Assembly: GCA_902569115.1 (NCBI GenBank) | Contig: CACFTI010000022.1 | Coordinates: 1 to 40,216 of the forward strand | Length of the DNA: 40,216 bases | Source of the DNA: an uncultured Verrucomicrobiota bacterium | GTDB taxonomy: Bacteria; Verrucomicrobiota; Verrucomicrobiia; Opitutales; Seribacteraceae | Reading direction: 5' to 3' | Part shown: positions 1,358 through 29,278 of the stretch, in pieces | How positions within the stretch are numbered: the stretch's first letter is position 1 | How the letters are laid out: each line of letters opens with the position of its first letter | Position numbers and translations under genes: made by a program | The notes under the pieces: generated by a model | The model's database searches: none | What the model was told of the DNA's origin: nothing | The model's input: only the letters and a program-made list of their open reading frames with translations

Positions 1358-2389
1358 ATGGCACAGGCAAATATTACAAATATCACCAGTACAGTCGGGG
1401 CAAGGGAAGACCTTTCCAACCAGCTTCGTCGGGTGAATCCAGAGGAAACACCTCTATATTCATTACTTCCACAATCATCCGCTCCAAAGGCGACAAAAAC
1501 AGAATGGTTAGTCGATACGCTCGATAATCCTACATTTGCTCCATTAGCGGATGGAAAAGACCTAACATTCAATTCTGACTACACCAATGAATTGGCAAAT
1601 CGCCAACGACTTGGAAATAAGATTCAGCAGTTTCAAAGACAAGGTGCGGTATCACCGATCTCAGAAATGATCGATGTTGCAGGGCCACAAACTTCGCTTC
1701 TTGCTGCCTCAAAAGCCCGGATTTTAACCACGTTAAAAACTGACATCGAGGCTTGTATCGCAAGTAATCAAGCTCCTGCTGATGACAATGGAACAGTCGG
1801 TTCAAAGATGGCTGGTCTTTTCCACATATCTGATCCAACAGCAAGTGGTGCTAGTTCGTTTTTTGAAACAAATGCTAAACAAGCTTTTCGTTCAGTAGCT
1901 GGTTCAAGACATAGTACTGGCGCGCTTACAGAATCTGCGTTCAGAGCTGTAGTTCAATCAATCTACGAAGCCGGAGGAACTTCACAGACTTACCGCTTGT
2001 TTGCAGGGCCAACCCTCATGAACGCTCTTACAGATTTCTCAAGAGCAATCAATGTGGTTGGTGGATCAAACTCTAAATTCGATGCAAATATTCAAGGTAC
2101 TAAACTTACTTTGAGTGTTGTCGAGATAGTCTCAGATTACGGAATTATCCAAGTGATACCTGACCTATTTTTGAACAGAAGTTCAGGGTCAGCTCTTGGA
2201 GCTTTGGGTAAGAAATCAGGAATCCTTATTCCTACCGATGACAATGTCAGCTTGAAGATGCTTCAGCCGATTACTGTCCAAGACCTACCTGACGTAGGCG
2301 GTGGAGGTGAGAGATTTCTCACAAGAGCGGTTCTTACTCTCTGTGTTCTTAATCCAAGAGCATTGGGATCAATTACCACAACTTCCTAA
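1358..2389 (+). CDS. Major capsid protein, SU10/DUF5309 type
   Basis: This 343-aa protein forms the icosahedral shell. The N-terminal pattern (REDLSNQLRRVNPEETPLYS, then a Trp and DTL segment) is characteristic of the SU10-like/DUF5309 capsid family, an HK97-fold group. Length is normal for the family. The centre is rich in Ala, Gly and Ser; the C-terminal part carries a hydrophobic IIQVIPDLFLNR strand and a Gly-rich QDLPDVGGGGERF turn before the last strand. It starts 13 bases after the scaffold stop and is followed by a 9-bp hairpin, which fits separate control of this most abundant product. The family call is from memory of sequence patterns. Confidence 0.85.
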   Translation: MAQANITNITSTVGAREDLSNQLRRVNPEETPLYSLLPQSSAPKATKTEWLVDTLDNPTFAPLADGKDLTFNSDYTNELANRQRLGNKIQQFQRQGAVSPISEMIDVAGPQTSLLAASKARILTTLKTDIEACIASNQAPADDNGTVGSKMAGLFHISDPTASGASSFFETNAKQAFRSVAGSRHSTGALTESAFRAVVQSIYEAGGTSQTYRLFAGPTLMNALTDFSRAINVVGGSNSKFDANIQGTKLTLSVVEIVSDYGIIQVIPDLFLNRSSGSALGALGKKSGILIPTDDNVSLKMLQPITVQDLPDVGGGGERFLTRAVLTLCVLNPRALGSITTTS

Positions 2390-2457: not shown

Positions 2458-2757
2458 ATGCCTTTAAACATCATAGTAAAATCAGGTGGACGAAAGAAGA
2501 TGAGCGATGAAGAACTTGCTCATTACATGGCAAAGAGAAATGACGAGTCTGCTATCCGCGATAGCTCCACTTACAGAGACAGATCACGCCAAATCCGCAA
2601 AGAAGCGGAAAACTTAAAATTACCTGACGGAATGAAAGTCAGGGCAGTCTATGATGCCAAGATGTTTCAGGCTCATGAGGAGCGAAATCCCGGCTGTATG
2701 AGTGATGAAGGTTATCTTCGCGAACTACGCAGAGATAACGATGAAATCAAAATGTGA
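2458..2757 (+). CDS. Small charged phage protein of unknown function (99 aa)
   Basis: The gene sits between capsid and adaptor genes. It is hydrophilic, rich in Arg, Lys, Glu and Asp, and looks mostly helical (residues about 15-75), with no membrane segment or Cys pair. The start at ATG 2458 is the first in frame after the capsid hairpin and has no obvious ribosome binding site. Its stop overlaps the next gene's GTG start, so the two are probably translationally coupled. Position suggests a head or neck accessory protein, but no family is recognised. Confidence 0.65.
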   Translation: MPLNIIVKSGGRKKMSDEELAHYMAKRNDESAIRDSSTYRDRSRQIRKEAENLKLPDGMKVRAVYDAKMFQAHEERNPGCMSDEGYLRELRRDNDEIKM

Positions 2758-3413
2758 GAACAATTGGATACCAGGATCTTTTGGCAAAATATACCTCACT
2801 CCGAGGTGTAGATGAATTGCTTGATGCTGAAAAAGCAGACTTCTCAAATTCACTCAATCATCGGATCAAACAAATTTGGACTAAGGCAAAGTGGCCCGAT
2901 CTTATTGTGGTCGTAGAAAAGACCATACAAGCTGTAGACACAGCTACTCTAAAAGCAGAAAATGCGGTCAGAATAGACAACGCTACTGATCTGCTCGATG
3001 TGTTTGGTGTCTTTAACAAGAATCCGTATGAGGATAACCATGCAATTCGTATCGATCATACATTGATCGATGGATACTTGGTTCTTCCTCGATCTAGTAC
3101 AGCTTTAACAGTTTTCGTTGTAGGATCGAAAGTTCCGCATGACGATTATGGAGAAGGGTATTTTAGCTCAAGCGGTTCATATCGAGAAGATATTCCAGCT
3201 TTTATGGAACACATGATTTTAAGCTTTGCGATGCACGATTACTATTTGGCTGATGGTCAAGGTGACAAGGCTCTAGCTGAATTACAAAAAGCTCAGGAAT
3301 ATATGAGCGATGCATTAGAAAGATTTGAACGAGTTGGCTCTCAAAGCAGGGTAACTGTTAACACATACCCTCCATCTAGGTTTAGCACTTACATCTCCCA
3401 GCGTAACATATGA
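2754..3413 (+). CDS. Putative head-to-tail adaptor protein
   Basis: This 219-aa protein begins with a GTG that overlaps the previous stop. Helices in residues about 5-45 (including a DELLDAEKADF segment) and about 155-200 frame a beta-rich middle. That arrangement resembles podovirus connector/adaptor (gp4- or T7 gp11-like) proteins, which build the ring between portal and tail nozzle. Size and location after the capsid gene agree. It overlaps the following glycosyltransferase by four bases (ATGA), so that cassette is embedded in the virion operon. No catalytic motif is visible. The call is made from layout and size. Confidence 0.6.
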   Translation: MRTIGYQDLLAKYTSLRGVDELLDAEKADFSNSLNHRIKQIWTKAKWPDLIVVVEKTIQAVDTATLKAENAVRIDNATDLLDVFGVFNKNPYEDNHAIRIDHTLIDGYLVLPRSSTALTVFVVGSKVPHDDYGEGYFSSSGSYREDIPAFMEHMILSFAMHDYYLADGQGDKALAELQKAQEYMSDALERFERVGSQSRVTVNTYPPSRFSTYISQRNI

Positions 3414-4213
3414 TCGGATCATTCTCAGTTTGTGCAAATGACAGAGCAAAGCGTGAGGTCGCTTTACTCATCAAGAGTATCCGGCAGTTTCACGATTGCC
3501 CAATCTTTGTTTTCTGCGATCTAGGTGCTAAGACTTTCTTGGAAAGTCTTAGCTTCAGCGATGTTAACTACAAACTTGAGTTAGAGCCTAATAAACTGGA
3601 ACGCAGGGAACGACTCGTTCGTCATGTAACTGACCAAAATGGATTTCACTCCAAAGCAATCATTCTATCAAAAATGGATTGCATCGAATGGGCTTTATGG
3701 GAAGCAAAAGATACATTCTTTGTAGACGCAGATATTGTATTCTTAAAGCCTGTTGATGATGAGATAGACCATTCAATGGATTTGATGCTTTCTCCTCATT
3801 TTCATGTGGAGGATAAGGTAAATCAGAACCGCACATACGGATCATTCAATGCGGGATATTTGTGGACAAAATCAATGGATTTCCCACAGGCATGGAGAGA
3901 TGTCTACACAACACTCTCCAAATTCTATGAGCAGGAAGGAATGGTTCATTTCTTTGAGCAGTTTGATACGAAGACATTTGGAAAGGATCACAATCTAGGT
4001 TTTTGGAGATATCCTAAAATATGGAACAGAGGGCGTTTATCATTAAAAGAGCCTGTGATCAACTGGGAGGATGTAAAGAGTGTTCACTTTCATTCGTTCC
4101 CTGAAACTTACGCTCATGCAGATAAAGGTCTGATCAAAGGTTACAACCTACTAAAGGACAGCTTAATGCCTAAGCTCTCTGAAGAACTAAGGAGTTTTGC
4201 CAATGCTTTATAG
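3410..4213 (+). CDS. GT-A-fold glycosyltransferase (first of two)
   Basis: This 267-aa protein should transfer a sugar from a nucleotide-sugar donor. The N-terminus (GSFSVCANDRAKREVALLIK) resembles the first Rossmann-like strand and helix of GT-A enzymes. FFVDADIVFLKP at residues about 103-114 carries the DxD metal/nucleotide-binding motif, followed by a SFNAGYLW acceptor-side motif typical of GT8-like enzymes. There is no signal peptide or membrane segment, so it should be soluble and cytoplasmic. Start ATG 3410 overlaps the adaptor stop, and its 3' end overlaps the sulfotransferase gene by 11 bases. It is probably co-translated with virion genes, which points to modification of a virion component or host glycan late in infection. 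The exact sugar and acceptor cannot be read. Confidence 0.82.
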   Translation: MIGSFSVCANDRAKREVALLIKSIRQFHDCPIFVFCDLGAKTFLESLSFSDVNYKLELEPNKLERRERLVRHVTDQNGFHSKAIILSKMDCIEWALWEAKDTFFVDADIVFLKPVDDEIDHSMDLMLSPHFHVEDKVNQNRTYGSFNAGYLWTKSMDFPQAWRDVYTTLSKFYEQEGMVHFFEQFDTKTFGKDHNLGFWRYPKIWNRGRLSLKEPVINWEDVKSVHFHSFPETYAHADKGLIKGYNLLKDSLMPKLSEELRSFANAL

Positions 4214-4874
4214 TCCCAAAAAAAGGTGGTTATTTATTCATGTTCCAAAAAACGCTGGAACAAGCTTACAAGCTAATTACTCGAAGATGAAATACGATCA
4301 TCGCGATTTGCCCAAAGATCGTAAACTCGAAAACCGCAAATTAGCAGAGGTAGAATACTTCGCTCCCAAAGGTGATGTTAACCACAACAAGTGGAGTTAC
4401 TTCAGAAAAGAAGACAACCTCAAAAACTTGAAACCTTTAGGAATCCTCAGAAATCCTTGGGATCGCTGTTTATCAATTTATGCATTTAGTCTTCAAAAAG
4501 CTCAGGAGCAACTGGGGCAAGAGTGGGCTAATTACGATCATCCATTACTTATTAAACAAGGATTCAAGAATGCATGGATGCCTGGTGGCTATTTTGTAGA
4601 TGGTCATGCAGATCATGTTAATTTTAACAAAGAAACAGGCAGATCATGGTCGTACGGAGACGATCAATATTCATGGCTTGATGGCGAAGGTGAATGGTAT
4701 CGGATCGAAGATCAATTAGATGAATTTTGCAAGTATACGGGTTTAGATAATCCACCAAGATTAAACACATCTAAGCGATTGGACTACCGACCTTATTACG
4801 ATGATGAATTAGCGGAGCAAATATCAATTCTCTTCGCGAGAGACATAAAAATTGGAGGCTATAAATTCGAGTGA
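4203..4874 (+). CDS. PAPS-dependent sulfotransferase
   Basis: This 223-aa protein likely moves sulfate from PAPS to a hydroxyl, most plausibly on a sugar given its neighbours. HVPKNAGTS near residues 13-21 is the 5'-phosphosulfate-binding loop (family form H-[IV]-P-K-x-[AG]-G-T-[ST]). LRNPWDRCLSIYAFS around residues 81-95 is the 3'-phosphate-binding motif (RNPxxRxxSxY). Both key motifs are intact and correctly spaced for the carbohydrate-type Sulfotransfer_2 group. I chose ATG 4203 because AAGGAG lies 8 bases upstream; a TTG six bases earlier is also in frame. It has no membrane anchor, unlike Golgi homologues. The stop overlaps the GTG of the second glycosyltransferase. Confidence 0.85.
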   Translation: MLYSPKKRWLFIHVPKNAGTSLQANYSKMKYDHRDLPKDRKLENRKLAEVEYFAPKGDVNHNKWSYFRKEDNLKNLKPLGILRNPWDRCLSIYAFSLQKAQEQLGQEWANYDHPLLIKQGFKNAWMPGGYFVDGHADHVNFNKETGRSWSYGDDQYSWLDGEGEWYRIEDQLDEFCKYTGLDNPPRLNTSKRLDYRPYYDDELAEQISILFARDIKIGGYKFE

Positions 4875-5677
4875 AGGTTTTAATTTACCAAGTTTATGTT
4901 CCTACGAATCATCAGGGTAATGTCGTAGATACTCCTAATCCTAAGCTAGTAGAGGCATCAGTTGCTTCTTTTAGAAAGTACGTAAAGAGGTACGGAATGG
5001 ACTATCTATTTGAGAACAGCCCTACTTTTAAGAAGAGCCAAATTCCTAAAGAAAAGGATAGTCGAATGCGCTTCTATTGGTCGATGGCTTTATGTCGGGA
5101 TGAACTACTCAAATACGATTATGTCATTCATGTAGATACAGACATAATAGCTCAGGAACACGCTAGAGATATAAGACCTCATCTTAAAGGGGACTTTTGT
5201 GCAGTACGCGAATTAATGGACTATCTAGGTCAATGGCATAAACCTGTCATGGCATTAAGAAGGGCATGGGGATATCACGGCAAAGCCCACTATTATGGGT
5301 ATGACCAATACCAATATTTCAATTCAGGTGTTTGGGCTAGTTCGCCCAAAGCTAGAAAATTAATCCGTGACAACTGGCGAAAATGGGCTTTTCAAAAGTG
5401 GGAGCAACCAACTCCTGAGCGGTTTCCATTCAAAGAGAAAAATCCTTTCACAGGTGATCAGGATATTTTGAACGCAATTGTTCATACATCTGATCTAGAT
5501 TTTCACCCATTGACTTGGAACTGGAATGGTCTGTCAAACGGACTGAAAAATATCAAGAAAGCAGATTTTATTCATTACTGTGCAAAAGTTGGAAAGTTCC
5601 TCTTTGAGCATCCTGAGTATCTCACAAAAACACCTATTAGCCCCTCAGAGCTTAAAAATCTAAAGGCTAAAATTTAA
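4871..5677 (+). CDS. GT-A-fold glycosyltransferase (second of two)
   Basis: This 268-aa protein is a second nucleotide-sugar-dependent transferase. KYDYVIHVDTDIIAQEH around residues 75-91 holds the DxD motif (DTD). YFNSGVW follows at about 148-154, and GDQDILNAIV at about 197-206 is the downstream acidic motif typical of GT8- and galactosyltransferase-like enzymes. It differs clearly from the first enzyme of the cassette, so it is not a recent duplicate and probably adds a different sugar or uses a different acceptor. The GTG start overlaps the sulfotransferase stop. The fibre gene begins 7 bases after its end, which makes the fibre a plausible substrate. Confidence 0.82.
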   Translation: MKVLIYQVYVPTNHQGNVVDTPNPKLVEASVASFRKYVKRYGMDYLFENSPTFKKSQIPKEKDSRMRFYWSMALCRDELLKYDYVIHVDTDIIAQEHARDIRPHLKGDFCAVRELMDYLGQWHKPVMALRRAWGYHGKAHYYGYDQYQYFNSGVWASSPKARKLIRDNWRKWAFQKWEQPTPERFPFKEKNPFTGDQDILNAIVHTSDLDFHPLTWNWNGLSNGLKNIKKADFIHYCAKVGKFLFEHPEYLTKTPISPSELKNLKAKI

Positions 5678-5684
5678 AGTTACT

Positions 5685-6539
5685 ATGGCTAATCGTAAAA
5701 TCACCCAATTACCTGTTCTCTCTTCAGCAAACGATGAGGATATTATTCCTATCGTTGATGACTCTGAGTTGACTACCAAACAAATCCAAGTCGGTGACTT
5801 ACTTGCTGACCAAATCACCGAAGCGGAAAGAACTAAACTTACCGGGATCGCTGAAGGAGCTACTGCAAATCAGACAGATGCATACTTGCTTAACAGGGCT
5901 AATCAAACAGGCACACAGCCAGCATCCTCAATCTCTGACTTTAATACCCAAGTAACTCAGGTCATTTCTGATGGAGGAGGTGGAGCAACTGACGCACAAT
6001 TGCGAGATCGCAGTACACATACTGGAACACAGGCTCTCTCCACAATATCAGACGCAGGAACATCAGCATCGCTGGATGTTCCTGCCACAGGTAATGCTAG
6101 TGCTTCCGAGGTAGTAAAAGGAAATGACACCAGGTTAACTAATGCGAGAACACCCACTTCTCACACTCATACCGCTTCTCAAATATCTGATTTCAGTTCT
6201 GCGGTAAGTACAGAGATTACCAATAATGCAGGGGCAGGGCATGGAACAGGGACAGTTACTGAGCATAACGATGTAAGTAATGCCGGAAGCGGACAAATTA
6301 TCACAACCTCTGAGCGAAATAAACTCTCAGGTATCGCAAGCGGAGCAACTGCCAATGCTTCAGACGCTACTTTAAAGAATAGAGCGAATCACACAGGTAC
6401 GCAGACTCTTTCCACAATCTCAGATGCAGGAACTTCAGCATCCCTAAATGTAGCTAGCTCAGGTGATGCTTCTAATTCACAAGTTGTTAAAGGAAACGAC
6501 TCAAGACTTACGGATGCAAGGCATCCTATCCTCCCATGA
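5685..6539 (+). CDS. Repeat-built tail fibre protein, possibly lacking a tip domain
   Basis: The 284-aa protein begins MANRKITQLPVLSSANDEDI, the classic N-terminal module of phage tail fibres and collars. The rest consists of Thr/Ser/Ala/Asn-rich fibre repeats. Module A (ERxKLxGIAxGATAN ... NRANxTGTQ) is at residues 49-78 and 210-240. Module B (HTGTQxLSTISDAGTSAS ... KGNDxRLTxAR) is at 112-155 and 237-279. Another SHTHTASQISDF segment lies at 159-170. The chain ends five residues into what would be a further repeat (DARHPILP), with no distal receptor-binding or chaperone domain. Its TGA overlaps the ATG of the next gene. It may be a truncated fibre or a shaft that works with the second fibre at 9081. 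Confidence 0.8.
   Translation: MANRKITQLPVLSSANDEDIIPIVDDSELTTKQIQVGDLLADQITEAERTKLTGIAEGATANQTDAYLLNRANQTGTQPASSISDFNTQVTQVISDGGGGATDAQLRDRSTHTGTQALSTISDAGTSASLDVPATGNASASEVVKGNDTRLTNARTPTSHTHTASQISDFSSAVSTEITNNAGAGHGTGTVTEHNDVSNAGSGQIITTSERNKLSGIASGATANASDATLKNRANHTGTQTLSTISDAGTSASLNVASSGDASNSQVVKGNDSRLTDARHPILP
5829..6521 (+). repeat. Interspersed coding repeats in the tail fibre gene
   Basis: Module A is at 5829-5918 and 6312-6404. Module B is at 6018-6149 and 6393-6521. The copies are clearly alike in protein, and also in DNA across the STISDAGTSAS segment, but have diverged elsewhere. Such repeats can recombine to lengthen, shorten or swap fibre shafts. Confidence 0.75.
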
Positions 6540-6967
6540 TATACCTTCTTCCATTATTACTACTCACTAGTTGCTCGATGAAGCAATGGTATCCAACTAT
6601 GGGAGCTGTTGTAGGCGGTGGAGTTGGGTCATTAGGTGGCCCAACTGGATCAGCTCTTGGAGCAGGAAGCGGTGCTTTGATTGGAGAGGTAGCAAAAGGT
6701 AACGCTGAGATCGAAGAAGCAAGGGAGACCATATCGGCACTTACTCACGGAGATGTAGAAACTCTCATTGAGAAAGGTATGGAACAACACGCGAGTGGCT
6801 TTGAATCATTTACTACCACGATTAAACGAATCCTAATCTTTGCATTTATCGGACTACTTTGCTACCTCGCGATTCCAATCTTTGTCGCCCGGAGATGTAG
6901 TAAGTCAGAAGTCCAAAAAGGACTTACCAATCCACCATTCCCTGTTCGCCCAAGTCAGAAGCCATGA
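6536..6967 (+). CDS. Unimolecular spanin-like lipoprotein with C-terminal membrane segment
   Basis: This 143-aa protein starts with a short lipoprotein signal ending in LLLTSC (predicted lipidated Cys13). A glycine-zipper region follows at about 23-50, then an amphipathic helix at about 57-95, a single membrane segment at about 97-118 (ILIFAFIGLLCYLAIPIFVA) and a basic cytoplasmic-type tail. An outer-membrane lipid anchor plus a C-terminal inner-membrane segment is the architecture of unimolecular spanins such as T1 gp11, which fuse the two membranes in the last lysis step. It opens a run of four genes joined by ATGA or TAATG overlaps, including a holin-like protein. A glycine-zipper membrane protein unrelated to lysis is the alternative. 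Confidence 0.6.
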   Translation: MIYLLPLLLLTSCSMKQWYPTMGAVVGGGVGSLGGPTGSALGAGSGALIGEVAKGNAEIEEARETISALTHGDVETLIEKGMEQHASGFESFTTTIKRILIFAFIGLLCYLAIPIFVARRCSKSEVQKGLTNPPFPVRPSQKP

Positions 6968-7080
6968 AGAATTTGAAACTACTCAAAGACAAATACAAAT
7001 CCCTAACAAAACAAGGAAAGATGATAACTTGCCTGGTTATTCTAATACTTCTCATCTTTATCGTAGATTGTTGCTGGTAA
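6964..7080 (+). CDS. 38-aa single-pass membrane protein in the lysis cluster
   Basis: A short frame translates to a basic N-terminus (MKNLKLLKDKYKSLTKQGK), a single membrane segment (about 20-34, ITCLVILILLIFIVD) and a C-terminal CCW. Its ATG overlaps the previous stop (ATGA) and its TAA shares a base with the next ATG, so it fits the coupled layout exactly. Orientation should be N-in by the positive-inside rule. It may be a small holin, antiholin or lysis regulator. No family is recognised. Confidence 0.62.
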   Translation: MKNLKLLKDKYKSLTKQGKMITCLVILILLIFIVDCCW

Positions 7081-7223
7081 TGGACAGAACATTTCTAGCA
7101 GGATTCACAGGCACTTGTGCAAGCATTGGACTTGGACAAGTTCATGCGATTGTCGGCATCATCGCTGGTCTAGCGACTATCGTCTACATGAGCATCAAAA
7201 TTTACGAGCTACTCAAGAAATGA
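7080..7223 (+). CDS. Small holin-like membrane protein (47 aa)
   Basis: ATG 7080 overlaps the previous TAA. A longer in-frame upstream extension exists but would run through the two preceding genes. The protein has a weakly hydrophobic first segment (about 4-19), then a strong membrane segment (about 22-38, VHAIVGIIAGLATIVYMSI), and ends in a charged YELLKK tail. This size and pattern resemble small holin-type proteins found beside tail genes in marine podoviruses. A holin would form inner-membrane holes to time lysis. Its stop overlaps the next ATG. Confidence 0.6.
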   Translation: MDRTFLAGFTGTCASIGLGQVHAIVGIIAGLATIVYMSIKIYELLKK

Positions 7224-7405
7224 ACGAAGTTCAAAAGTTGGAAGCAGTAATCCGTAAGAAGGATAATCAAATTGATGAGTTACTTGTCGTCATTGATACA
7301 GCTCAGGCTGCTCTAAGAAGAGCGGAGTCAACTATCAAGGAAGAGAAGGATAAAGCCCATGTTTTTAATCAATCAGCAAAGTGGGTTTTAAACTTTAAGC
7401 TATGA
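7220..7405 (+). CDS. Small coiled-coil protein (61 aa)
   Basis: The start ATG 7220 overlaps the holin-like stop, and its TGA overlaps the nozzle gene's ATG. Almost the whole chain is a predicted charged helix (KLEAVIRKKDNQIDELLVVI and onward) with heptad-like hydrophobic spacing, ending in WVLNFKL. It lacks a signal peptide and a membrane segment. It could be a lysis accessory or a small virion factor. Confidence 0.6.
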   Translation: MNEVQKLEAVIRKKDNQIDELLVVIDTAQAALRRAESTIKEEKDKAHVFNQSAKWVLNFKL

Positions 7406-9078
7406 CTCGTTATCGTGGATATGGAAAACTTGATGATCCGATGCGAGAAGTCGGTGACACAGGTTTTGCTGCCTTGGCTTCTAGGGACGAACCAACCCAG
7501 CTACAGGCTGGGGTGGTTAGTGAAGCAAAGAACATTCGCTTAGATGACGGCAAGGCTACCACAAGACTTGGATACACTACTCAAATTGATTTTGAGAGTA
7601 TGTTTCTTTCTGATGAACAGGGAAGAACACTTACAGCAGAGGATGAAGGTTTTCTTATCATTGATGGAAATACTTCACCACATTTCTTCGGAGCATCTTA
7701 CTTTGGTGGAATTGGAGTAGAGGACAGAAATCAGATTGTAATCATACAAAACGACAAGCTTCTGTTCTTCAATGGTACAAACTACTCTGAGAAGGAGTTT
7801 GAGACGAACTATGTCTTTGATCCTATCCTACCAATTAGACTTACATTTGTTCTAGGCAGAAACGAATCTACCGAACCTTTTATTACTGGTGAACAAGTAG
7901 AGATCGTACAATTTAATAACCAAGTCATTCTGCTATCAGGAGCAGGAGCAAACCTCCCGGTAAACCTTGATTTTCCACTTGGACAGAAAGTACAAAAGTG
8001 GGACGGAGAGGCTACATCTGACTTTGTCGAAGACCCTAATATTCCTAATGGCGAATTTGGCATAGTCACAGGCAACCGATTGGCAATCAAGACGAGTAAT
8101 GATGAAATCAGTTTTAGCGATATTTCCAATGAATCAAACTTCGATGTCCTTGCTAAATTTAACTTTGGATCAGGTGACGGAGATAACATTGTTGGTATGT
8201 CACCAATTCCTGAATCTTCTGCATTGGTTTTCAAGCGTCGATCAATTTGGGCAATCAGCGGTCTTAATCTCATTGATTTTGGTACAGCCTCAATAACACA
8301 GGTTAGCAAACAAACAGGATGTGTCTCCAGGCATTCTATTCAAAATGTAGGATCAGCAGTCTTCTTTTTAGCAGACTCAGGAGTATACGCCTTGGATATC
8401 GGATTAGATGCTTCTAATGCAAGAGGAACGCTTACCCGATTTGATCTTCAAGACCAGCCAATATCAAAGCCAATAAACGACCAAATTTTAGCCGAGGATT
8501 TCACGGAAGCAGAAAATTCATGCCGAAGCATATTTTTTAATAATCGCTACTACTTGTCTTTTGTAGAAGGTGAGCGGTCACGCGTATACATCTTCAACAC
8601 CTTAATGGGAGCATGGGAATCGCGAGATGAATATGAATTTCCTATTCGCGATTTTGTTAAGGCTAAAACTAAGGCTGATACAAACGAGAGACTTTATGCA
8701 TTATCCAAGACAGGGAAACTATTCCGCATGGATGATGGTAATCTTGATGAAAGCGAACTGATAGACTGGTCTTTAAATACAAGGGCTTATGATAATCAGA
8801 ATCTGGAAATCAAGAATTTCCGTAGAGGATATGTGAAGGTCGAGTCATTAGACGAGACTGGAACTACCGATTTGAGTGTAGATATTACTGATCCTGATTC
8901 TACCTCTTCTATCCAACTTAACCGACCCAATAACGAAGGTTACATCGAGCGATTCACAATCGGCAAAAGAGGTAACAGCCTCATGTACAAATTTTCAGGA
9001 ACTGGACGAAATGCAATTAAGCATCTTCGTGCAGAGTTAATCGAATCCCAAAATAACTTAATCTCAACCAATCAATAG
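7402..9078 (+). CDS. Tail nozzle protein with beta-propeller-like body
   Basis: This 558-aa protein resembles podovirus nozzle/stabilisation proteins (T7 gp12, P22 gp10 type). Early residues carry the expected GEAKNIRLDDGKATTRLGY-like pattern near 40-60 (here EAKNIRLDDGKATTRLGY). The middle holds repeated beta blades with landmarks NGEFGIVTGNRLAIKTSNDE, a FNFGSGDGDNIVGM turn, VFKRRSIWAI, and then GCVSRHSIQNVG with FFLADSGVYAL. These are the blade signatures seen in phage nozzle propellers. It would extend the tail tube below the adaptor and control genome exit. Size and position before fibre and internal virion genes agree. Confidence 0.78.
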   Translation: MTRYRGYGKLDDPMREVGDTGFAALASRDEPTQLQAGVVSEAKNIRLDDGKATTRLGYTTQIDFESMFLSDEQGRTLTAEDEGFLIIDGNTSPHFFGASYFGGIGVEDRNQIVIIQNDKLLFFNGTNYSEKEFETNYVFDPILPIRLTFVLGRNESTEPFITGEQVEIVQFNNQVILLSGAGANLPVNLDFPLGQKVQKWDGEATSDFVEDPNIPNGEFGIVTGNRLAIKTSNDEISFSDISNESNFDVLAKFNFGSGDGDNIVGMSPIPESSALVFKRRSIWAISGLNLIDFGTASITQVSKQTGCVSRHSIQNVGSAVFFLADSGVYALDIGLDASNARGTLTRFDLQDQPISKPINDQILAEDFTEAENSCRSIFFNNRYYLSFVEGERSRVYIFNTLMGAWESRDEYEFPIRDFVKAKTKADTNERLYALSKTGKLFRMDDGNLDESELIDWSLNTRAYDNQNLEIKNFRRGYVKVESLDETGTTDLSVDITDPDSTSSIQLNRPNNEGYIERFTIGKRGNSLMYKFSGTGRNAIKHLRAELIESQNNLISTNQ

Positions 9079-9080
9079 CT

Positions 9081-10637
9081 ATGGCTCTATCACAATCTAA
9101 TACTCATAAATTTGCATCAGGAGAGTTGGTAACAGCGACCAAGCTCAATAATGTCAAAGTAGTCCAAACGGATACGAATACTAATAACAACAACTTCACA
9201 GGTGCGCAGGGACAACTTACTTACGACACTACCAATAATAAGTTGCGACTTCATGATGGTTCAACTGCCGGAGGTACGGAGGTTGCTTTCGGTGGATCGG
9301 GTGGAGTCACTACTACCAACATTAGCAACAATGCGATTACCACGGCTAAGATTTCAGATGGCAATGTTACTACTGTCAAGATCGCAGACGGTGCAATTAC
9401 GGCAGATAAGATTGATGCAGGAGCAGTAACCGACCATCAGATCGCAAACGATGCAGTCACACTTGATAAATTGAATGATGACATTTTAGACCCAAGTGGT
9501 GGTTTAGAGCTTGGAGCTAATGGAATAAAAATAGCAACTTCAAGCACCGCCTTGAGCGTTGTATTGCGTATAAACGCAACTACAGGGATTGCTTTTGTTT
9601 CAGGCACTACTCATGTGGCAAGGAACGCAGACCAAATAACAATTACCGATAAGTTTGTTGGAATTAGGGATGCGTATTCATGGTTAAATAACAACATAAG
9701 TTCAACAGGTATCACGATAGACATAGTCATTGAGACTAACATTACCGAAACGGCTTCTACTGCTTATTTTGTTCGTACCACAGATGATCGATTAGGGACT
9801 GTCAGGTTTTGGTCTCAGGGTTTGTACGATAATCTTGGCACACCTTCCGCGACAAAAATTACTCCACCTGTTGTGACCATCAATGTTGATCAAAACTCTA
9901 GCTTTGCTGCTAGGTTCATATTTTGGTTTGGGAATACTACCGTTTTTCGGGGTATTCACTTTGTTGCAAACTACGGAGCAAAGGGTGGAGAATACCATGC
10001 TTTTGCCCGTGCGTTAGGATGCAGGGTCTCCTTCATTTATTGTAAGATCACACTTACTTCTTCTGTAGTTACAAACAGGGTATTAGAGAGTGTAAACAAT
10101 GCTTTAATGCGTGTGACCTCTGATATGTATGCATCTACTATTAATGGTCACGAAGACCCATTTACAAATGGAGGACGTGCGCATGGCTTAGAGATCGATA
10201 TCACAGGATGTACGGCTGGAATAGGTTTTTGTATTGGAGTATCAAATCAATCCGCATTTGAAGCGATTGAGTTTAGAGCAGGGGCTGATCGAGATTTGTC
10301 GGGAATACATTTTACGGGGAGTGGAGTTTCAGCGATGAATTACTTCATGGATTTACGAGCCTCTAGTAGAGCAAATATAAATGTAAAGCTTAGTCGAAAC
10401 CCTGCTACTACACTTGCTTCAAACTCTGTTTTTGATGGGCAAGGATATAACACCTTAACTCTTGATACCTACACCGAACAAGGCACGACTAAGTATTCAA
10501 AATTACCAGGACAAATTGCTTATGCTTCAGGGTTTACTACACCCGAAGATTTTTCCGCTAACTCTACTTTTGGTACTGACCAAGCGAATGGCCCTGTTGC
10601 TAGTGTAGCACTTGATATCGAAGCGGATTATTTCTGA
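9081..10637 (+). CDS. Second tail fibre/spike with beta-helix-like C-terminal region
   Basis: The N-terminal ~130 residues of this 518-aa protein are fibre-like. They include a SQSNTHKFASGELVTATKLN start and repeats of the type AITTAKISDGNVTTVKIADG and AITADKIDAGAVTDHQIAND, common in phage fibres. After a linker (DPSGGLELGANGIKI) the rest is rich in short beta strands and Asn/Gly turns, as expected for a right-handed beta-helix or similar trimeric spike. No polysaccharide lyase or sialidase active-site motif could be identified. It probably recognises the host surface. It starts 2 bases after the nozzle stop and its TGA shares a base with the next ATG. Confidence 0.72.
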   Translation: MALSQSNTHKFASGELVTATKLNNVKVVQTDTNTNNNNFTGAQGQLTYDTTNNKLRLHDGSTAGGTEVAFGGSGGVTTTNISNNAITTAKISDGNVTTVKIADGAITADKIDAGAVTDHQIANDAVTLDKLNDDILDPSGGLELGANGIKIATSSTALSVVLRINATTGIAFVSGTTHVARNADQITITDKFVGIRDAYSWLNNNISSTGITIDIVIETNITETASTAYFVRTTDDRLGTVRFWSQGLYDNLGTPSATKITPPVVTINVDQNSSFAARFIFWFGNTTVFRGIHFVANYGAKGGEYHAFARALGCRVSFIYCKITLTSSVVTNRVLESVNNALMRVTSDMYASTINGHEDPFTNGGRAHGLEIDITGCTAGIGFCIGVSNQSAFEAIEFRAGADRDLSGIHFTGSGVSAMNYFMDLRASSRANINVKLSRNPATTLASNSVFDGQGYNTLTLDTYTEQGTTKYSKLPGQIAYASGFTTPEDFSANSTFGTDQANGPVASVALDIEADYF

Positions 10638-11005
10638 TGCTAAAAATTACCGCAGATTTAGTTAAGGAAGGTCACCCTCCGTTGGTTGATGTGATGAGCC
10701 ATTACGAAAATAAAGGAGAGTTTATCCAAGACTTGGAGAGCTACTTCCAAGCCGGTGTGGTTATTTCCACACCCACTTTTTTCGTCATGGGTAAACCTGT
10801 TGACTCTAGCATTGACCCAAGGGGTCAATGGTATGCCAAGAATCCAGACGCATGGTTTGTGAAACTTGCTTCAGGCAAAGGAGCAATGAGGTTCATGACA
10901 TCGCTTGTGAAGCCATTGAGTAAGGTAATCTTCAGTCGGTTCAAAAATGGTCAGTTCTCTGATTTTAAAACTTATGATTGGAAAAAACTCACACGGAGGA
11001 TTTAA
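10637..11005 (+). CDS. Unknown protein in the T7 gene 13 position (122 aa)
   Basis: A small mixed protein with a hydrophobic mid-section (AGVVISTPTFFVMGKPV), a conserved-looking DPRGQWYAKNPDAWFVKLASG stretch and a basic C-terminus (KTYDWKKLTRRI). It overlaps the spike stop by one base and precedes three internal-virion-type genes, so it is in the place of T7 gene 13. No GNAT, lysozyme or amidase motif can be claimed. Morphogenesis helper is a positional guess. Confidence 0.6.
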   Translation: MLKITADLVKEGHPPLVDVMSHYENKGEFIQDLESYFQAGVVISTPTFFVMGKPVDSSIDPRGQWYAKNPDAWFVKLASGKGAMRFMTSLVKPLSKVIFSRFKNGQFSDFKTYDWKKLTRRI

Positions 11006-11007
11006 TT

Positions 11008-12027
11008 ATGTCAACTACTGTAGAAGCACCACCGCCAAGAGATTATGCAAAAGAGACTGGGGATACCTTACAAACTCAGATCGATTTAGCTCCTCAGCTT
11101 TACGAGAGTGAAGCAAAGTTCCGCCCACAATATGCTGACCTTGAAAGAGGGATCATGCTTGAGCAATTGGGGATTGATCCGAATCTTGGTCTACTAGAGG
11201 CATACGAAAATTATATTGCTCCATCACAGGTTCGTCAGCGAAGAGAAGCTGTAGAAGGTGACATAGCAATGGTCAAAGACTTAGGTAAGGATTTGATCGA
11301 AGCTCAACGAGAAGCTGACCCATTAGCAGAATCATTACGGCAGAAAGTCATGACTGGCACAGGAGAAATGGCTGACCGCATGGAGGGCGAACTTGATGGA
11401 GAATTTATCCAAGGGCTAGAGGATGATATGGAAGGAGGTCTAGTTGGACAACTTCGTGAAGAATACGAAGCTGGGGGTGGACTTACTCAGCAAGAAAGAA
11501 GAGATTTAGACCAACAGGTTTTAGGTATAGCTCAAGAGCGTGGGGCAGTCGGTCAGAATATGACCGACTTTGAGCGTATGCGAAAGCGACTAACAGGGGA
11601 TCGCGGTGTTCGCCAACAAAGACTTCAGAATTATATGGGAGCAAAGCAAACTGCCTTGGGTAATTACATGGGGGCAAGGCAACAAGGTTTATCCAACTAT
11701 GCATCTGCTTTACAAAACACAGCAGGGGCTTACCAACTAGGCGCGCAAGACCCATTGATGGCATTAACAGGTCGTGCGAGTCGCGTACCAGGCGATGTCG
11801 CAGGACAATTTAATACCGCTGGTTTTGCACTAGATTCATCTCCAGCATTATTTAACCCTGAAAGTGCATACGCAGGGTCTTTAGCTGCCTCTAATCAACA
11901 AAACATTATGGATGCTAGAACAGCAACTGCCTCTAATCGTGCAGGGCTTCTTAGTGGTGCATTAGGATTTGGAGGTAGTTTATTCGGAGGCATGGCTCAA
12001 GGAGGCACAGGCTTTTTCAAAGGATAG
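11008..12027 (+). CDS. Internal virion protein candidate (gp14-like position)
   Basis: The start is ATG 11008: CGGAGGA lies 7 bases upstream, and an in-frame ATG 30 bases earlier would overlap the previous gene. The 339-aa protein has helical N-terminal parts (QLYESEAKFRPQYADLERGI), then Gln/Arg-rich repeats around residues 185-235 (two YMGAKQTALGN/YMGARQQGLSN units), and a Gly/Ala-rich C-terminus (LLSGALGFGGSLFGGMAQGG) resembling a membrane-active or pore segment. T7-like internal virion proteins are ejected to make a channel through the envelope, and the glycine-rich tail would suit that. No enzyme motif is seen. Confidence 0.65.
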   Translation: MSTTVEAPPPRDYAKETGDTLQTQIDLAPQLYESEAKFRPQYADLERGIMLEQLGIDPNLGLLEAYENYIAPSQVRQRREAVEGDIAMVKDLGKDLIEAQREADPLAESLRQKVMTGTGEMADRMEGELDGEFIQGLEDDMEGGLVGQLREEYEAGGGLTQQERRDLDQQVLGIAQERGAVGQNMTDFERMRKRLTGDRGVRQQRLQNYMGAKQTALGNYMGARQQGLSNYASALQNTAGAYQLGAQDPLMALTGRASRVPGDVAGQFNTAGFALDSSPALFNPESAYAGSLAASNQQNIMDARTATASNRAGLLSGALGFGGSLFGGMAQGGTGFFKG

Positions 12028-12039
12028 GAGGATAACGTC

Positions 12040-13248
12040 ATGGCAAGAAGACCATTTTTTGGAAGTTCAGGAGCATCGCCCATCGCAAAGATGGATATGT
12101 ACGCGGCAACAGCTCCGGGTCGTTTCTATAATCAGGCTCTTTCACAGCTTGGGGAAGCAGTTGGTGGAGCAATCGCTAAGTATGGTGAAAATAAGAAGAA
12201 GAAAGAAGATCAGCAAATTAATGAAAACGCCTTTATCGCTTTAGGTCTCAGCCCTGAAGAAGCAAAGGCAGCATCTCGCGACCCACAGGTCGCTTCGCAA
12301 ATTGCTCAGTTCAAACAAATGGGATATCGAGGGGGCAGGGGTGGTAGTCCTCCTTCCACTTTTGCGGAAAGAAAGTACGATGCAGAACAGCAAAAGGAAG
12401 CAGACTTTGAACAAGAATTAGAGGCTGGAAATAGATTTCTATTAGAGCGTGGCGAAGAGAGAATGCCAACATCTGAGGAAGGTAGATATTCAGTCTTGAG
12501 AAATCTTAGAGAGGGCAAGGGGATGACACCTCCTGCACGAATGGTAAGGGAAGATTCACAAGTTGTTTCTCAACTTCCTGATCATTACAAGGCATTTGGT
12601 CGTGATGTAGAGAAGGCAGTTGAAAGTGGCGAGATTACTCCAAGAGTTGGAATGAGTTTAATTCAGGAGAAGCAAGCTATAGCCCAAGCAGAAGCTACTC
12701 GCGAAGCTGAGTTTAATGAAAAGATAGCTATCGAAACCTTCAAGCATAACCTGAAGAACCAGCCCGGTGAGCGAGATATGAGCGGATCAATTGTGGTTAA
12801 TGACTCTATTTCTAGAGCAAACGATTTGATTGGCCCATTCACTACTGGATTTGGTTCTTACTTAAAATCTATTCCTGAAACAGATGCCAAAGCTCTTGAT
12901 TCTGTATTCACCACAATCAAGGCGAACATTGGATTTGATAAGCTTCAGGCAATGAGAGAGGCTTCTCCAACAGGTGGAGCTTTGGGTCAGGTTTCCAATC
13001 AGGAGCTTAGTTCATTACAAGCTGTATTCGGTAATCTTGACCAATCACAGTCTGAGGAAGATTTAAAGTACAACCTTAAAATGCTCCAACACGTTTACAA
13101 TAACATCGTTCATGGAGTTGGTAACCATCCTTTTAAGCATCCAATGGATAAAAGCCCGGTAGTTGCTCCAACTGCACCAGCAAGCGATGCTACAAAACAA
13201 AGGCTTCAGGAATTACAGCAAATGAAGCAACAAAGATCGCAAAGGTAA
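12040..13248 (+). CDS. Internal virion protein candidate (gp15-like position)
   Basis: This 402-aa protein is hydrophilic and mostly helical, rich in Gln, Glu, Lys and Ala, and ends in a Gln/Arg-rich tail (MKQQRSQR). A good AGGAGG Shine-Dalgarno sequence lies upstream of ATG 12040. The N-terminus (FFGSSGASPIAKMDMYAATA) and the AVGGAIAKYGENKKKKED region look like helical core-protein sequence. It overlaps the giant downstream gene (TAATG), which matches the gp15-gp16 pairing of T7-like phages. Function is inferred from order. Confidence 0.62.
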   Translation: MARRPFFGSSGASPIAKMDMYAATAPGRFYNQALSQLGEAVGGAIAKYGENKKKKEDQQINENAFIALGLSPEEAKAASRDPQVASQIAQFKQMGYRGGRGGSPPSTFAERKYDAEQQKEADFEQELEAGNRFLLERGEERMPTSEEGRYSVLRNLREGKGMTPPARMVREDSQVVSQLPDHYKAFGRDVEKAVESGEITPRVGMSLIQEKQAIAQAEATREAEFNEKIAIETFKHNLKNQPGERDMSGSIVVNDSISRANDLIGPFTTGFGSYLKSIPETDAKALDSVFTTIKANIGFDKLQAMREASPTGGALGQVSNQELSSLQAVFGNLDQSQSEEDLKYNLKMLQHVYNNIVHGVGNHPFKHPMDKSPVVAPTAPASDATKQRLQELQQMKQQRSQR

Positions 13249-16200
13249 TGCTCACAGAACAAGAAGCTCAGAATCAAATAAAGGAGCTGGAAAAGGAGTT
13301 GGGTGTTAGCCCAACGACTTTGACAGAAGCTGATGCTCAGTCAGAAATAGAAGCTCTCCAAAAGGAAATGGCATCTCTACCAATGACCATTCAAGAGTTT
13401 GCAACTAAAAGAAAAGAAGATGGAGAAAAGGCATTTTCTGATAAAGCTATGGCATTTGGGTCAACTATCGCAGAAGGATTCAAAGAACTTGGTAGGCAGG
13501 GCATGGAGGCAACTGAAGAAGCAGAAGGCTTGTTAGACTTTGATGCCTATGGTGACATCATTAATATTGGTAGCCGTGACTTTTGGAGATTTGCCAAGAC
13601 AATTGGTGGATCAATTATGGATGAGCTTGGTCATACTGATCAAGAAGAGCTGGTTCGCGAATATATGCGATACCGCCAAAACTTTGACTACTATCAAAAA
13701 GTTCGTCCAGCAATGCTTGAAAGTGATGAGGTCGAATATAAGAAACTCACAGACTTTGGGGCTAATTTCATTGATCCTTTTATGGCTTTCCCTGTCGCAA
13801 AGGTAGGTGCATTTGCGACAAAGACTACTCTAAAAGGCGCGCAGAAAGGATTAACTGCTGGAGCTACATTATCTCGTTCTCAAGGGATGGTGAATGTTGC
13901 TAAAGGGTTACGGGGAACTGGTCAGGCAATTGAAAAGCTGGAGCGAGGCGTAGATATAGCCGGAAAGATTGGAGCATATCCAACTGAGATGGCTTCTCGC
14001 ATGACTGCTAAAGCTTTGCGTAAAGGAGCTAAAGGAACGGCACTAGTAGCTGGTTATGGATTAAAAGGGGTTGGAGTTTTAGGTTCAGGTACAGCTAAAG
14101 TTGCATCAGCTCCTCGTAAGTTGATCGAAGCTGGAGTAAGCAAGGTAACTAAAGGAGCAAAAGATTTTGGAGGTGTAACTCTAGGTGGACAGGTTGTTGG
14201 TGGACTAACACAAACTGTTCCATTGGCATTTGAGCTTGGCATTACTGAAGGTATAGGATTGATAGCCAAGAAAATTGGCAAAGGGGCAGGAGAGGTTTTA
14301 ACTACACTTGCTCAACCAGCATCGAATAAGAGATTTCTCTATCGATTGGCGACTAATTCAAAAGTTAGTCCGCAAACACGAAAGTTAGCGATGCACGCAT
14401 ACAACCTTCGCGGAACAGCCATGGGTGACGCTGTTTTCAATATGATGGCTAACGGACTAAGCATCGGAGCAATTAATGCCGGATTAGCAGGAGTTGCTGG
14501 AGAAGATGCTGAAAACATGGGTCGAGCATTTGGTGCAGGACTTTTGGCTGGTGGAGTAATTCCAAGCGGTCAGCAAGGCATGAGAGCCGGGAAGACTGAT
14601 ACCGCGAGGGATATGAAATCCATTGATAATCACATGAGGTACAAGCTGACTGAAGAACAGCGGAAGGCTTTCAAGCAAATGCCGAAACCAGCTCAGGTGA
14701 TGTTAGCCACTTTAAATGAATCAGGCATTGGTTCGCCAAAGTTCATGATCATGGAATCCAAGACATACTTGGAGATGCTTAATGCTGATCTTAGATCAAA
14801 AGGTAAACCTGAGCTTACTAAAGCACCTAGAGGGCATTACGATCCTGTTAGTAGGACTTTTTATGCTAATAAATCAAAGCTTCCTGAAAGCTCTGCTGTT
14901 GCAATGGAAACAATAGCCCATGAGACCGGGCATGATTTTCTTCATCAGATGTTAGGCAATGATCCTATGATGCTGGACTTGCTTTTGGAAAACTACAAAA
15001 CCAGCAAAGAAGAAGGAACAGCTTTTTATTATGAATACGATAAAGACGGCAATCCGCTTGGAGAACCGATTTATCTAAATCAAATGGCAGTCGCGATTCG
15101 CGATGATTACGACATGAAGCAAAGAGGGCGACCAGCTACTGCTGAAGATGTAGCTAAAGGTCTTGCCCAGCGTGAGGGCAAGATGATTGGTGGAATCAAA
15201 CTTGGAAACAATGCTAGCAAACTAGCTCAGGAAATTGGTGCAGATCAGTTCGCCATGATGTTCAGTAAAGACCCAAATGCCTTCAATCATTTCCATCCTA
15301 CGATGAGGAATCTTTTACTCAATGCCAGTAGGAAACTTTTATCAGTTTTGGGTATGGCAGAACCTGTGACAGGTAACCCACTCAAGAATCCTATCTCCAG
15401 GATCCAGCTCAATAATCCAGCCCTCCGTAGGCTCTATGAGAACTACGGAAGGGCTAGGGCAATTGAGTTAAATGAGAAAGGTAAGCTTGCTAAAGATGGA
15501 ATGCTGATAAGACCAAAAGACGGACAAACTGGTGAAGATCGGTTTATGGAGATGATGGGTGGAAATAAGGAATTTCAATCCAATGGTCTGTCTCTGACTG
15601 AAGCTAAGAATCTTAGGGTTACGAATAAGAGCCTCCAGCGTGAGATCAATAACATCAAAAAGATGTACAAGGAAGAACCGCAAGATGGATGGTCTGTGAA
15701 AAGAGGTAGACTATTTGGCAAGCGGTTAACTCCTGATTTACGAACAATCTTCACACGCAATGATCCATTTGGAAATGTTGCCACAATCTTGGATGCTCTA
15801 CAGCAAGCAATCGATCAGGGAATTGGTGTTGTCTTTGGTTACCGATCAGGAACGAAAGGTAAATATCAGAATCCTTTCCGCATGAGAGATGTTGCACTTT
15901 ACACATACGAAGTGTCCGGCAATTCACTAAAAGTGAATGGCTACGACCAGGCGGTAGTAAGAAATAATATCCAAGTACTAGTCGAGAATGGTTATATTGC
16001 TAAGGATGGTATCAAGGACTTTGAGCGACAACTAGCAGAGCAAGGGCAGAAAGCCCTTGCTGACCCTGAAGGCAGGATAAATCCTGATGGCGGTGCTGAG
16101 AATACTCTTATGACTGCTGTATTTGGATTAAAGGAATCAGCGGAGAATATACGTAGCCAAGGAATCAAAGACCTACTGGAAAGCGGAAAACTAGAGAAAG

Positions 16201-19200
16201 CATACCGCTCCTACGATGTTGAGGCTTTGGCTGGTATTGGTATGGGTCGCAGGAAAGCATTCACTTTTAATTACGATAATATCCGTAATAACTACAATCC
16301 GTTCAGGCAAAGTGATGAACCAATGTTTATGCCACGTGAAAGCAAGGGTTTTGATAAGAGTGTATCCCTTAGATCAAACAAAGATTTAATCGAAAGAATT
16401 GATGATTTTGCAAACCTCAGAGGTATATCACGAAATGATGCAATTAATGAAATTTTGAAGGATCAATTTCCTGAAGAAGTAGATAACATTAATCAAGGTG
16501 CGGATGTAAGTGAAATCCAAAGTGATATCACTTTAACCCCTGAAGAACAAAGGCTTTTAAAGCTTTCTCGCGTTGGTGCTGAAGATGCTGAAGCATATAA
16601 AAAAGCTTTCTCTAAAAAGGTACAAATTGCAGAAGCTAAAATACTGCAAAAACGCAAGAGTGATGAACCGATGTATATGCCGGACAGCGATGCTCCTGCC
16701 AATCTTCCTCCAACTCCTTATGAAGTTAGTAGGATGTCTCATCGTAACCGCTTCACTTTGGGCTTCAACGACAACATCATTGATGAGGTTATTCCCTCTA
16801 TCAAACAGGACAAGTTTAGTGGTCAGCAGATGATTGCTGCCATGTCAAAGGTGGCTGGAGCAAAGGTTTATGCTGACGAAATTGGACTAACAGAATTTCT
16901 CAACAGCAAGAAGAGCTTCGAGAAAAGTGATATCCTGAAATACATGAACGAGAATGCCCCGAAGCTAGATATTAAGCGACTGAAAGGGGAAGGAGAACCA
17001 TTTGATCATGAATCTTACAGAGAAATGCTTCGTGAATCTGAGTTAGATAATCTTTATGCTAATCATAGTATTGATGGAAATCAGTTTGATGATGATGGAA
17101 ATGAATATTTCACAATAGAATATTTTGGTGAAGAAATACTGGATGGTGATGAACCAATGAGGTTTGAAGATGAGTATGATGCAGAAAATTACTTGGAAGA
17201 CCTTGTAAATGAAGATGTAGATAACTACAGCGAAGGAGAAATTGAAGATATATTTTATGACGCCTATGAAAGAAGTCAGGGCGATCCTGATGCAGAGGGA
17301 GCAACTCAATATCACGAATGGGCTGGCGACGGAGGAGAGGATTATCAGGAAATCCTGATTAAACTTCAAAATGAAGGATTTGATTACAACGATCCACACT
17401 TTTCAGGCGAAGAGAATGTGATACTGCATTTACGAACAACGACCCGATACGATAGCAAAGATAAAAAAGTCTTCTTTATCGAAGAGGTTCAATCTGATTT
17501 GCACCAAGCTGGTAGATCAGAAGGTTATGATAATGCACCTCTCAAAGGTGAAGTTGTTGAACGGACTTATACACCTTCTCCTAAGCTTACTAAAACTTTA
17601 AACCTTACTGGTGGTGGTGAAGTGAAAGCTCCTGAAGTAAAATCACTTGATATCCATTGGGAAGATGGTCGCGTAACAAGTACTGGTTTCACTCAAAGAA
17701 GTTTAGCTGAAGAACATCTTAAAAGTCTTGCACAACGAATGGCTGGTGGTGTTCCTGATGCTCCATTCAAGAAGAATTGGCCCGCACTTGGATTGAAGCT
17801 CGCGATACAAGAAGCGATGGATAATGGAGCAACCAAGGTCGCGTGGCTTGGAGGGCAAGGTCATGTGGATCGCTATCCTACGATGACCAAGCATATCCGT
17901 GATATTTATGTCAATTACGCTCATGAAAACAGGAAGCTTTATAATTTAGATGTCACTCTCCATAATGGTCAGACTATCAAGAAAGTTGATTTGCTTGAGC
18001 GTGATATGGTCAGGTTGGTCGGTAAGAAGTTTACGCAAAAGGCAAAAGAAGACCTTGCAAGGAAGGAAGACTATAAGATCGCTGAAGTTGGTTATGTAGG
18101 GCTAGACATTGAAGTCGGTAAAGGGGGTATGCTTAACTTTTACGACAGGGAGATGGTGAGTCTTGCAAACAAGATCGGAAAGAAGATCGGTGCTAAGAAA
18201 GTTGAGCAATACAAGAATGTCGAAAATATCGAGGGGTGGGAAATGGAATTACCTCCTCGCCCGGTCAGAGTGAAAAGCAGTAATAACTACAATGAGTTTT
18301 CTCTGTTCATGCCGGATACTGACAAAGTCTCTAACAACAGCCTTCCTGAAGTTGTGAACGAAGTCGCAAGAAAGACTAAGAATGTTCCTGTTGTCGAGAA
18401 TGAACCAATGTTCATGCCAGCCTTGGAGGATGCTAAATCCATTGTGGCAGAAAAGGGCAGGGTAGCAGAGAACGCTGAAGATGTATTCTTCGGAGCTATG
18501 CTACCGAAGCTTCTACGCAAAACTGGTGGACAGCTAAAACCAAGTGTTCGCAATATCCGCGAGGCTACTAGAAGAGCAATCGAGGATGTGACTCCATTTC
18601 TGCGAGATAATCCGCAGTTTGCGGATTATTATAACAAGGACATGGAAGCTACTCGTAACGAGCTGGATCAAGGCTATGGCAATGTAAGCGATGATGATTT
18701 CCTCTTCTATCGAACAATGCTTGGACTGACATCTCCAGGCACTAAGCTTCCATCGAATGTTGGAGATGGAGTTAATATCTTCAATCTCTACAAGGAGAAG
18801 GGTAATCTTGATGACATTAAAATGGGAACAAGTGAGAAAGGTAATCCTGTCATCGCTTCATCACCATTTAAGATTTCAGGAACAACCGCTCCAACAAAAG
18901 CCCGGTCACTTCTTATCGTAGACAGCCTCCGCAAAGAGCTTGGTAGCGTAAGAGATGCTATCGACTTCCTTGAGGAAGGTGTTCCAATCAAAGAGCTTCA
19001 TCAGTTCAACAAGCAAATGGGCTATGCTGGCAATGTTGCTAAGACTGGTGATATAAGAAGAATCGTTAAACAAGCTACCGGGCAGGATGAGCTAATTCCA
19101 AGGATGTTTATCTTCGGGCCAAAAGTTGGAGCTTACACTTTAAACGCGGTAGGTAATCACAATTACAATACCATTGATGTTTGGGAGGCTAGGTTTATCA

Positions 19201-29040: not shown

Positions 29041-29278
<238 letters not shown>

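Follow-up and report, generated by a model that had tools for sequence, protein, structure and literature searches.

An uncultured Verrucomicrobiota bacterium of the family Seribacteraceae (NCBI GenBank assembly GCA_902569115.1, contig CACFTI010000022.1) harbours a prophage in whose virion operon a glycosyltransferase (GT) gene, a sulfotransferase gene and a second GT gene follow one another in overlapping frames. The three enzymes, here called GT1, ST and GT2, very probably form one glycan-sulfation module of some kind; its preservation as a unit is supported by recurrence of the cassette in related viruses and by its occurrence at a second genomic position. Our preferred reading, to which we give an even chance, is that the enzymes would build a short sulfated glycan step by step in the cytoplasm, with a surface-exposed virion protein as the most likely acceptor. 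Glycosylation of virions by phages has been described, and so have phage sulfotransferases; in the open-licence literature searched, no account of a phage GT-sulfotransferase combination or of a sulfated-virion system was found. The window denotes the whole stretch analysed, 40,216 nucleotides (nt) long, in which the cassette comprises:

3410..4213, plus strand: GT1, GT-A-like glycosyltransferase of 267 amino acids, member of a virus family, with DxD at residues 106-108 and an invariant NAG motif
4203..4874, plus strand: ST, carbohydrate sulfotransferase of the type dependent on 3'-phosphoadenosine-5'-phosphosulfate (PAPS), 223 amino acids from the ATG, with Sulfotransfer_2 and phrog_3347 matches and both PAPS motifs
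4871..5677, plus strand: GT2, second GT-A-like enzyme of 268 amino acids, in a swappable third slot

Open reading frame (ORF) and sequence reading places all three genes where a preliminary description of this DNA had put them, and the coordinates bear out the tight junctions reported there. The start of GT1 and the stop of the upstream gene share ATGA (3410-3413, 4 nt), ST read from ATG 4203 overlaps GT1 by 11 nt, and GT2 starts at GTG 4871, with GTGA shared with the ST stop in a 4-nt overlap; the next gene begins 7 nt beyond the end of GT2 (5677 to 5685). An alternative ST start exists at TTG 4197, and ATG 4203 is preferred because it is preceded by AAGGAG. Since the whole or partial triplet recurs in viral contigs with similar overlaps, the arrangement is not due to chance. 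The cassette enzymes contain no hydrophobic segment (peak 19-residue hydropathy 1.12, 0.50 and 0.37) and should therefore act in the cytoplasm.

ST lies marginally above the Pfam cut-off for Sulfotransfer_2 (22.4 bits, cut-off 22) and matches PHROG 3347, annotated 'galactose-3-O-sulfotransferase', clearly (58 bits). Its motifs HVPKNAG.S and RNPW.R.LS.Y, which we take to be the 5'-phosphosulfate and 3'-phosphate binding motifs, are invariant in all seven sequences compared, confirming that both PAPS-binding motifs are intact. The host genome (assembly G000, 2.38 Mb, 70% complete) carries an adenosine-5'-phosphosulfate (APS) kinase gene and two PAPS_reduct-family genes, one of which adjoins the APS kinase gene on contig C11, so that a host supply of PAPS is likely.

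GT1 matches no Pfam and no PHROG family. The sequences compared are those of the window and 26 loci, together 27 in 14 clusters at 70% identity, with L006 (identical to L019) excluded as frameshifted; here and below, L-numbers denote the viral or genomic contig loci compared. The DxD motif (D106-A-D108) and the NAG motif are kept in all 27, and HxH in 25, the remaining two being gapped. The predicted model of GT1, of middling confidence, resembles glycogenin and has a GT-A-like fold. In GT2 the motif is D89-T-D91, with both aspartates invariant in 7/7 sequences, and the solved structure that best matches its predicted fold is the capsid glycosyltransferase of PBCV-1. Of the proposal that the cassette encodes two GT-A enzymes with DxD motifs, the motifs and, at middling confidence, the predicted folds stand, while assignment to Pfam GT8 does not: GT1 has no match, GT2 reaches 16.2 bits against a cut-off of 24.3, and a GT-A fold with DxD is common to other GT-A families as well. 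With GT1 outside known families and GT2 below threshold, the label GT-A is drawn from motifs and predicted folds.

GT1 is the most conserved cassette member and is under purifying selection, with dN/dS of 0.09 (window versus L002) and 0.07 (window versus L003) by a simple Nei-Gojobori count from which pairs with saturated dS were excluded; the values are 0.10 for ST (L002 versus L003) and 0.07 for GT2 (window versus L008; dS 1.6, near saturation). A PDB sequence search gave no match for ST and only uncredited rows for GT1 and GT2 (best E 0.14 and 0.0073), the interferon gamma rows for these two being without a passing stretch. Among 50,697 phage records, GT1 and GT2 matched none and ST a single one, at 26.5% identity; in viral contigs a single-sequence scan with ST gave nothing and an alignment scan was required. 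GT1 was found in one of 57 relatives' genomes and one of 384 sampled class members, in both cases its own genome. A first scan of bacterial genome contigs confirmed none of 42 candidates, and a second gave a single match, weak and covering only part of the protein (residues 107-179, 29%), in Aquimarina. These whole-genome and contig scans thus yielded no bacterial source, and within the collections searched GT1 appears almost confined to uncultivated virus contigs. It could also serve as a marker gene in searches for such cassettes.

At the locus itself, the probable adaptor gene is followed by GT1 and ST in L002, L003, L004/L005, L006 and L008. GT2 occupies the third slot in L006, L008 and L007, the last of these a contig that starts inside ST; the slot holds a different GT, of about 28% identity, in L002/L003 and is empty in L004/L005. 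The triplet expected at the adaptor/fibre position of related phages is therefore present as GT1-ST (L002-L006, L008), with GT2 as third gene only in L006 and L008. The enzymes are exchanged separately, as GT1 of L002 is 96% and its ST 52% identical to the window's. Frameshifts split both GT1 and ST in L006; the major capsid protein (MCP) and scaffold genes of L008 are split too, and the breaks are for this reason read, without proof, as assembly errors rather than decay. L006 (9464-10834) has a methyltransferase fused in frame to the front of GT2; the contig is frameshifted elsewhere, and the fusion may be an assembly error. In L041/L042 (adaptor 64%, GT1 59-60% identical) the genes at the same locus match DUF6625 (108 bits), Sulfotransfer_4 (95.8 bits) and Gly_transf_sug (31.5 bits), and in L042 gene g6536 and the fibre gene come after this sulfotransferase-GT set.

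A second genomic position is seen in L024/L025 and L026-L028, where the full triplet, 44-54% identical and with similar overlaps, has the large terminase gene on one side and a gene for a small protein on the other (L025 begins within GT1). Homologues always found as isolated cargo in unrelated positions had been named beforehand as speaking against the proposed reading; this applies in part only, since the position does change but the three genes stay together in L024-L028. A sulfotransferase stands beside GT1 in eight of the 14 clusters (the window's, L041/L042, L024-L028, L046, L047, L049, L050 and L051). Sulfotransfer_2, Sulfotransfer_4 and Sulfotransfer_3/_1 all occur beside GT1, which suggests that sulfotransferase function is retained even though the family differs. 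Collagen-like repeat genes directly precede GT1 in L053 and L056-L058, with an 86-amino-acid ORF intervening in L052, and collagen-like repeats occur in nearby tail-fibre genes of L047 and L049; no such repeats were seen at the remaining 14 of the 21 scanned loci, among them that of the window.

Several loci display further variation. In L047 a 549-amino-acid ORF (9146-10795) consists of two tandem GT1 domains and is followed by two sulfotransferases with a 922-amino-acid multi-domain GT/methyltransferase between them. An unrelated phage, L030, holds, after a P22-type coat gene and ahead of the tail genes, genes for GT9, sub-threshold GT8, Sulfotransfer_2, FkbM and other methyltransferases, and SIS-domain proteins (5625-12133). 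In L031 and L039, relatives of ST lie beside head- and tail-like genes (by eye only); the L031 neighbour is below the Pfam methyltransferase cut-offs and the L039 neighbour matched nothing.

The virion genes around the cassette are:

1358..2389, plus strand: MCP, SU10_MCP family (142 bits), anchor of the virion operon
2754..3413, plus strand: gene upstream of GT1, probable head-tail adaptor by its position after the MCP and synteny in viral relatives
5685..6539, plus strand: gene downstream of GT2, Ser/Thr-rich (26%), fibre- or head-decoration-like, candidate acceptor
9081..10637, plus strand: Mtd_N-type fibre (Mtd_N 29.9 bits, cut-off 26.3), another candidate acceptor

The names 'adaptor' and 'fibre' given earlier to the immediate neighbours fare unevenly, since position and synteny favour the first and neither is confirmed by a family: the upstream gene has one weak match to a PHROG family of unknown function (E 0.0055), and the best PHROG match of the downstream gene is phrog_2647, head decoration (6e-15), with tail-protein matches ranking lower. 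A specific tie between the cassette and the neighbouring fibre gene did not hold up, given that GT1-ST persists without it (L004/L005), that fibre-like genes occur without the cassette (L075-L077) and that the triplet also stands beside the terminase gene (L024-L028); L004/L005 and the three cassette-less same-genus contigs rule this gene out as a required acceptor. In those three contigs (MCP 35-48% identical) the corresponding stretch gave no GT1, ST or GT2 match, nor did their incomplete genomes give one to GT1; their fibre-like genes were called by eye from N-terminal sequence, and tblastn with the window's fibre gene, run on L075 and L076, found no match at 1e-3. Between the adaptor gene and g6536, L075 (5356-6639) and L076 (10945-11706), both without the cassette, encode LamG lectin-like domains.

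The window is the right part of a genuine prophage integrated at tRNA-Phe, which ends at:

29240..29278, no strand: attR core of 39 bp, within the 5' half of tRNA-Phe, right end of the prophage

Homology to the empty sites of sister genomes begins at 29240, inside tRNA-Phe. The left end lies on contig C10 of the same assembly, where an intact tRNA-Phe is followed by an integrase gene (30.6 bits, Pfam cut-off 27.1), and attL, attR and the attP of G431, a viral contig found free, all have exactly the same 39-bp core. On C10 (L083, 7373-8859) the integrase-side tRNA-Phe is intact, with its 5' half supplied by the phage. Adjoining attR, a 662-amino-acid ORF (27007-28995) has no Pfam or PHROG match and is 71% identical in G431. 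This free phage is a close relative, with an MCP 96% and replication genes 92-99% identical. Identity is 80% for the adaptor, 81% for GT1, 67% for ST, 80% for GT2 and 57% for the gene at 5685-6539, 70% for g6536 and 62% for g10637, and lowest of all for the Mtd fibre (46% over 226 of 518 residues). ST is thus less similar than most ordinary virion genes nearby, and the fibres are lower still.

The proposed mechanism would begin with GT1, ST and GT2 being made together with the late virion proteins. GT1, glycogenin-like by predicted fold, would most likely add the first sugar and GT2 another, and ST would move sulfate from host-made PAPS onto one of these sugars. The acceptor would most likely be a virion protein encoded in the same operon and exposed on the surface (decoration/fibre protein, Mtd-type fibre or capsid). 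The particle would then bear a glycan of negative charge, and exchange of ST and the third-slot enzyme among phages would alter its chemistry; shielding, retention or adsorption are conceivable purposes. A virion protein is favoured over the host coat because of the coupling to the operon, the LamG domains in the same stretch of relatives and the fold match of GT2 to a capsid glycosyltransferase, and also because of the collagen-like neighbours of some GT1 genes and the GT/sulfotransferase/methyltransferase cluster that follows the coat gene in L030.

A number of observations weigh against a virion acceptor or a dedicated sulfation module. The structure models of GT1 and GT2 are of middling confidence only. 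Two of the 14 GT1 clusters (L044, L048) have only a candidate sulfotransferase, its Pfam match absent or sub-threshold, and in four (L052, L053, L054/L055, L056-L058) no sulfotransferase was seen among neighbours that were partly scanned, some contigs ending close by. L004/L005 keep GT1-ST, and no fibre gene was found there (L005 checked over about 32 of 41 kb). Virion genes occupy much of a phage genome, so that closeness of the cassette to them is weak evidence, and other virion genes have likewise diverged from G431 (scaffold 82, g7402 80, g10978 77, g12040 78%), meaning that the cassette shares a broad divergence of the virion stretch. A podovirus sulfotransferase has been placed in the replication-gene region (PMC13299392). 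Finally, six sulfotransferases occur in a Wzt-type locus of the host, and cytoplasmic enzymes could act on the host's surface polysaccharide.

This last point leads to the most serious alternative, possible though somewhat doubtful, that the cassette modifies the surface polysaccharide of the host at a late stage of infection. Its enzymes would work in the cytoplasm on the elongating chain before this is exported by an ATP-binding cassette (ABC) transporter; the altered receptor would reduce superinfection or the loss of progeny onto debris. This alternative stays strong because of host contig C43 (L090, 1-16209), where six sulfotransferases above Pfam cut-offs lie together with multi-domain GTs and a Wzt-type ABC ATPase; a surface polysaccharide is thus probably assembled in the host cytoplasm and sulfated by the host's own enzymes. 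Persistence of the cassette without a neighbouring fibre gene fits as well, and host O-chain modification has been proposed for GTs of pelagimyophages (PMC7029224). However, the cassette sits in the virion operon, the best fold match of GT2 is a virus capsid enzyme, and ST is not close to the host sulfotransferases (one ORF of the C43 locus matched, 31% over 93 amino acids, E 0.002). A search for GtrA (PF04138) gave no match in the one host genome, an assembly 70% complete and missing part of the prophage, and the enzymes have no hydrophobic segment, yet an ABC-exported chain would need neither.

Improbable, by comparison, is that the genes are auxiliary cargo encoding separate enzymes that act on host metabolites or exopolysaccharide with no common product. 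PHROGs classes the ST family as moron/auxiliary, the cassette is optional and some GT1 clusters have no visible sulfotransferase; against this, order and similar overlaps survive relocation, and another sulfotransferase family accompanies other GTs at the same locus. We know of no precedent for sulfated DNA sugars, and it is very improbable that the GTs glycosylate hypermodified phage DNA while ST sulfates the DNA sugar or something else, given that the cassette lies among virion rather than replication genes and that none of six related viral records (possibly fragments) holds a gene of the thymidylate-synthase family, which serves in base hypermodification, the sole match being in the host, even if phage GTs acting on DNA do exist. 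The latter are covered by literature cited in PMC12619734.

Among known systems, the mycobacteriophages (Che8 and relatives), whose GTs are held to glycosylate a capsid or tail-tube protein (Freeman et al. 2023, cited in PMC12619734 and PMC11256854), are comparable by description in that GTs are phage-encoded, here among virion genes by motif and predicted fold. They differ in that the available text of both papers describes no sulfotransferase, and in that the GT genes of Maravista lie near the genome end, whereas GT1 overlaps the gene after the MCP. The PBCV-1 enzyme (PDB 2p6w, 2p72, 2p73) shares only 13-14% identity with GT2 and belongs to a virus of a eukaryotic alga, so that fold likeness is no proof of function. 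Sulfotransferase genes are likewise phage-encoded in PHROG 3347 and in two metagenomic viral genomes, where Sulfotransfer_3 genes, of a different Pfam family than ST, are reported and their function in phages is called unclear (PMC10580990); ST is set apart by lying between two GTs in overlapping frames within a virion operon. Glycogenin and other GT8 enzymes (LgtC, LARGE1) resemble GT1 in predicted GT-A fold and DxD, at about 12-18% identity, without a Pfam GT8 match and with middling model confidence. The Gtr clusters of temperate phages, which bring about O-antigen conversion, also contain glycosyltransferases. Such conversion is disfavoured here, as the cassette has no membrane-bound GT, lies in the virion operon and has no GtrA match in the host genome noted above.

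The cassette offers a testable model for the function of phage sulfotransferases, whether these put sulfated glycoproteins on the particles of tailed phages or sulfate the coat of the host. It would enlarge the recognised range of phage surface changes by charge and variation. The host assembly has 81 sulfatase-family matches (one sub-cut-off; some are two pieces of one frame), which suggests a niche in sulfated polysaccharides, and phage adsorption or persistence might be tied to these polymers. A broader and rather unlikely extension is that GT1 founds a virus-specific, glycogenin-like priming family whose members initiate glycans on a virion protein itself, be it a collagen-like fibre, a decoration protein or a fibre protein, upon which swappable GTs, methyltransferases and sulfotransferases of at least three Pfam families build a sulfated, variable coat on tailed phages. 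In this host, such a coat on the virion could mimic the host glycan or bait receptors of sulfated polysaccharides.

Downstream in the window, a 2148-amino-acid ORF (13248-19694) without a Pfam match contains, by eye, a metallopeptidase-like motif, AHETGHDFLH, and possibly encodes an injected internal virion protein.

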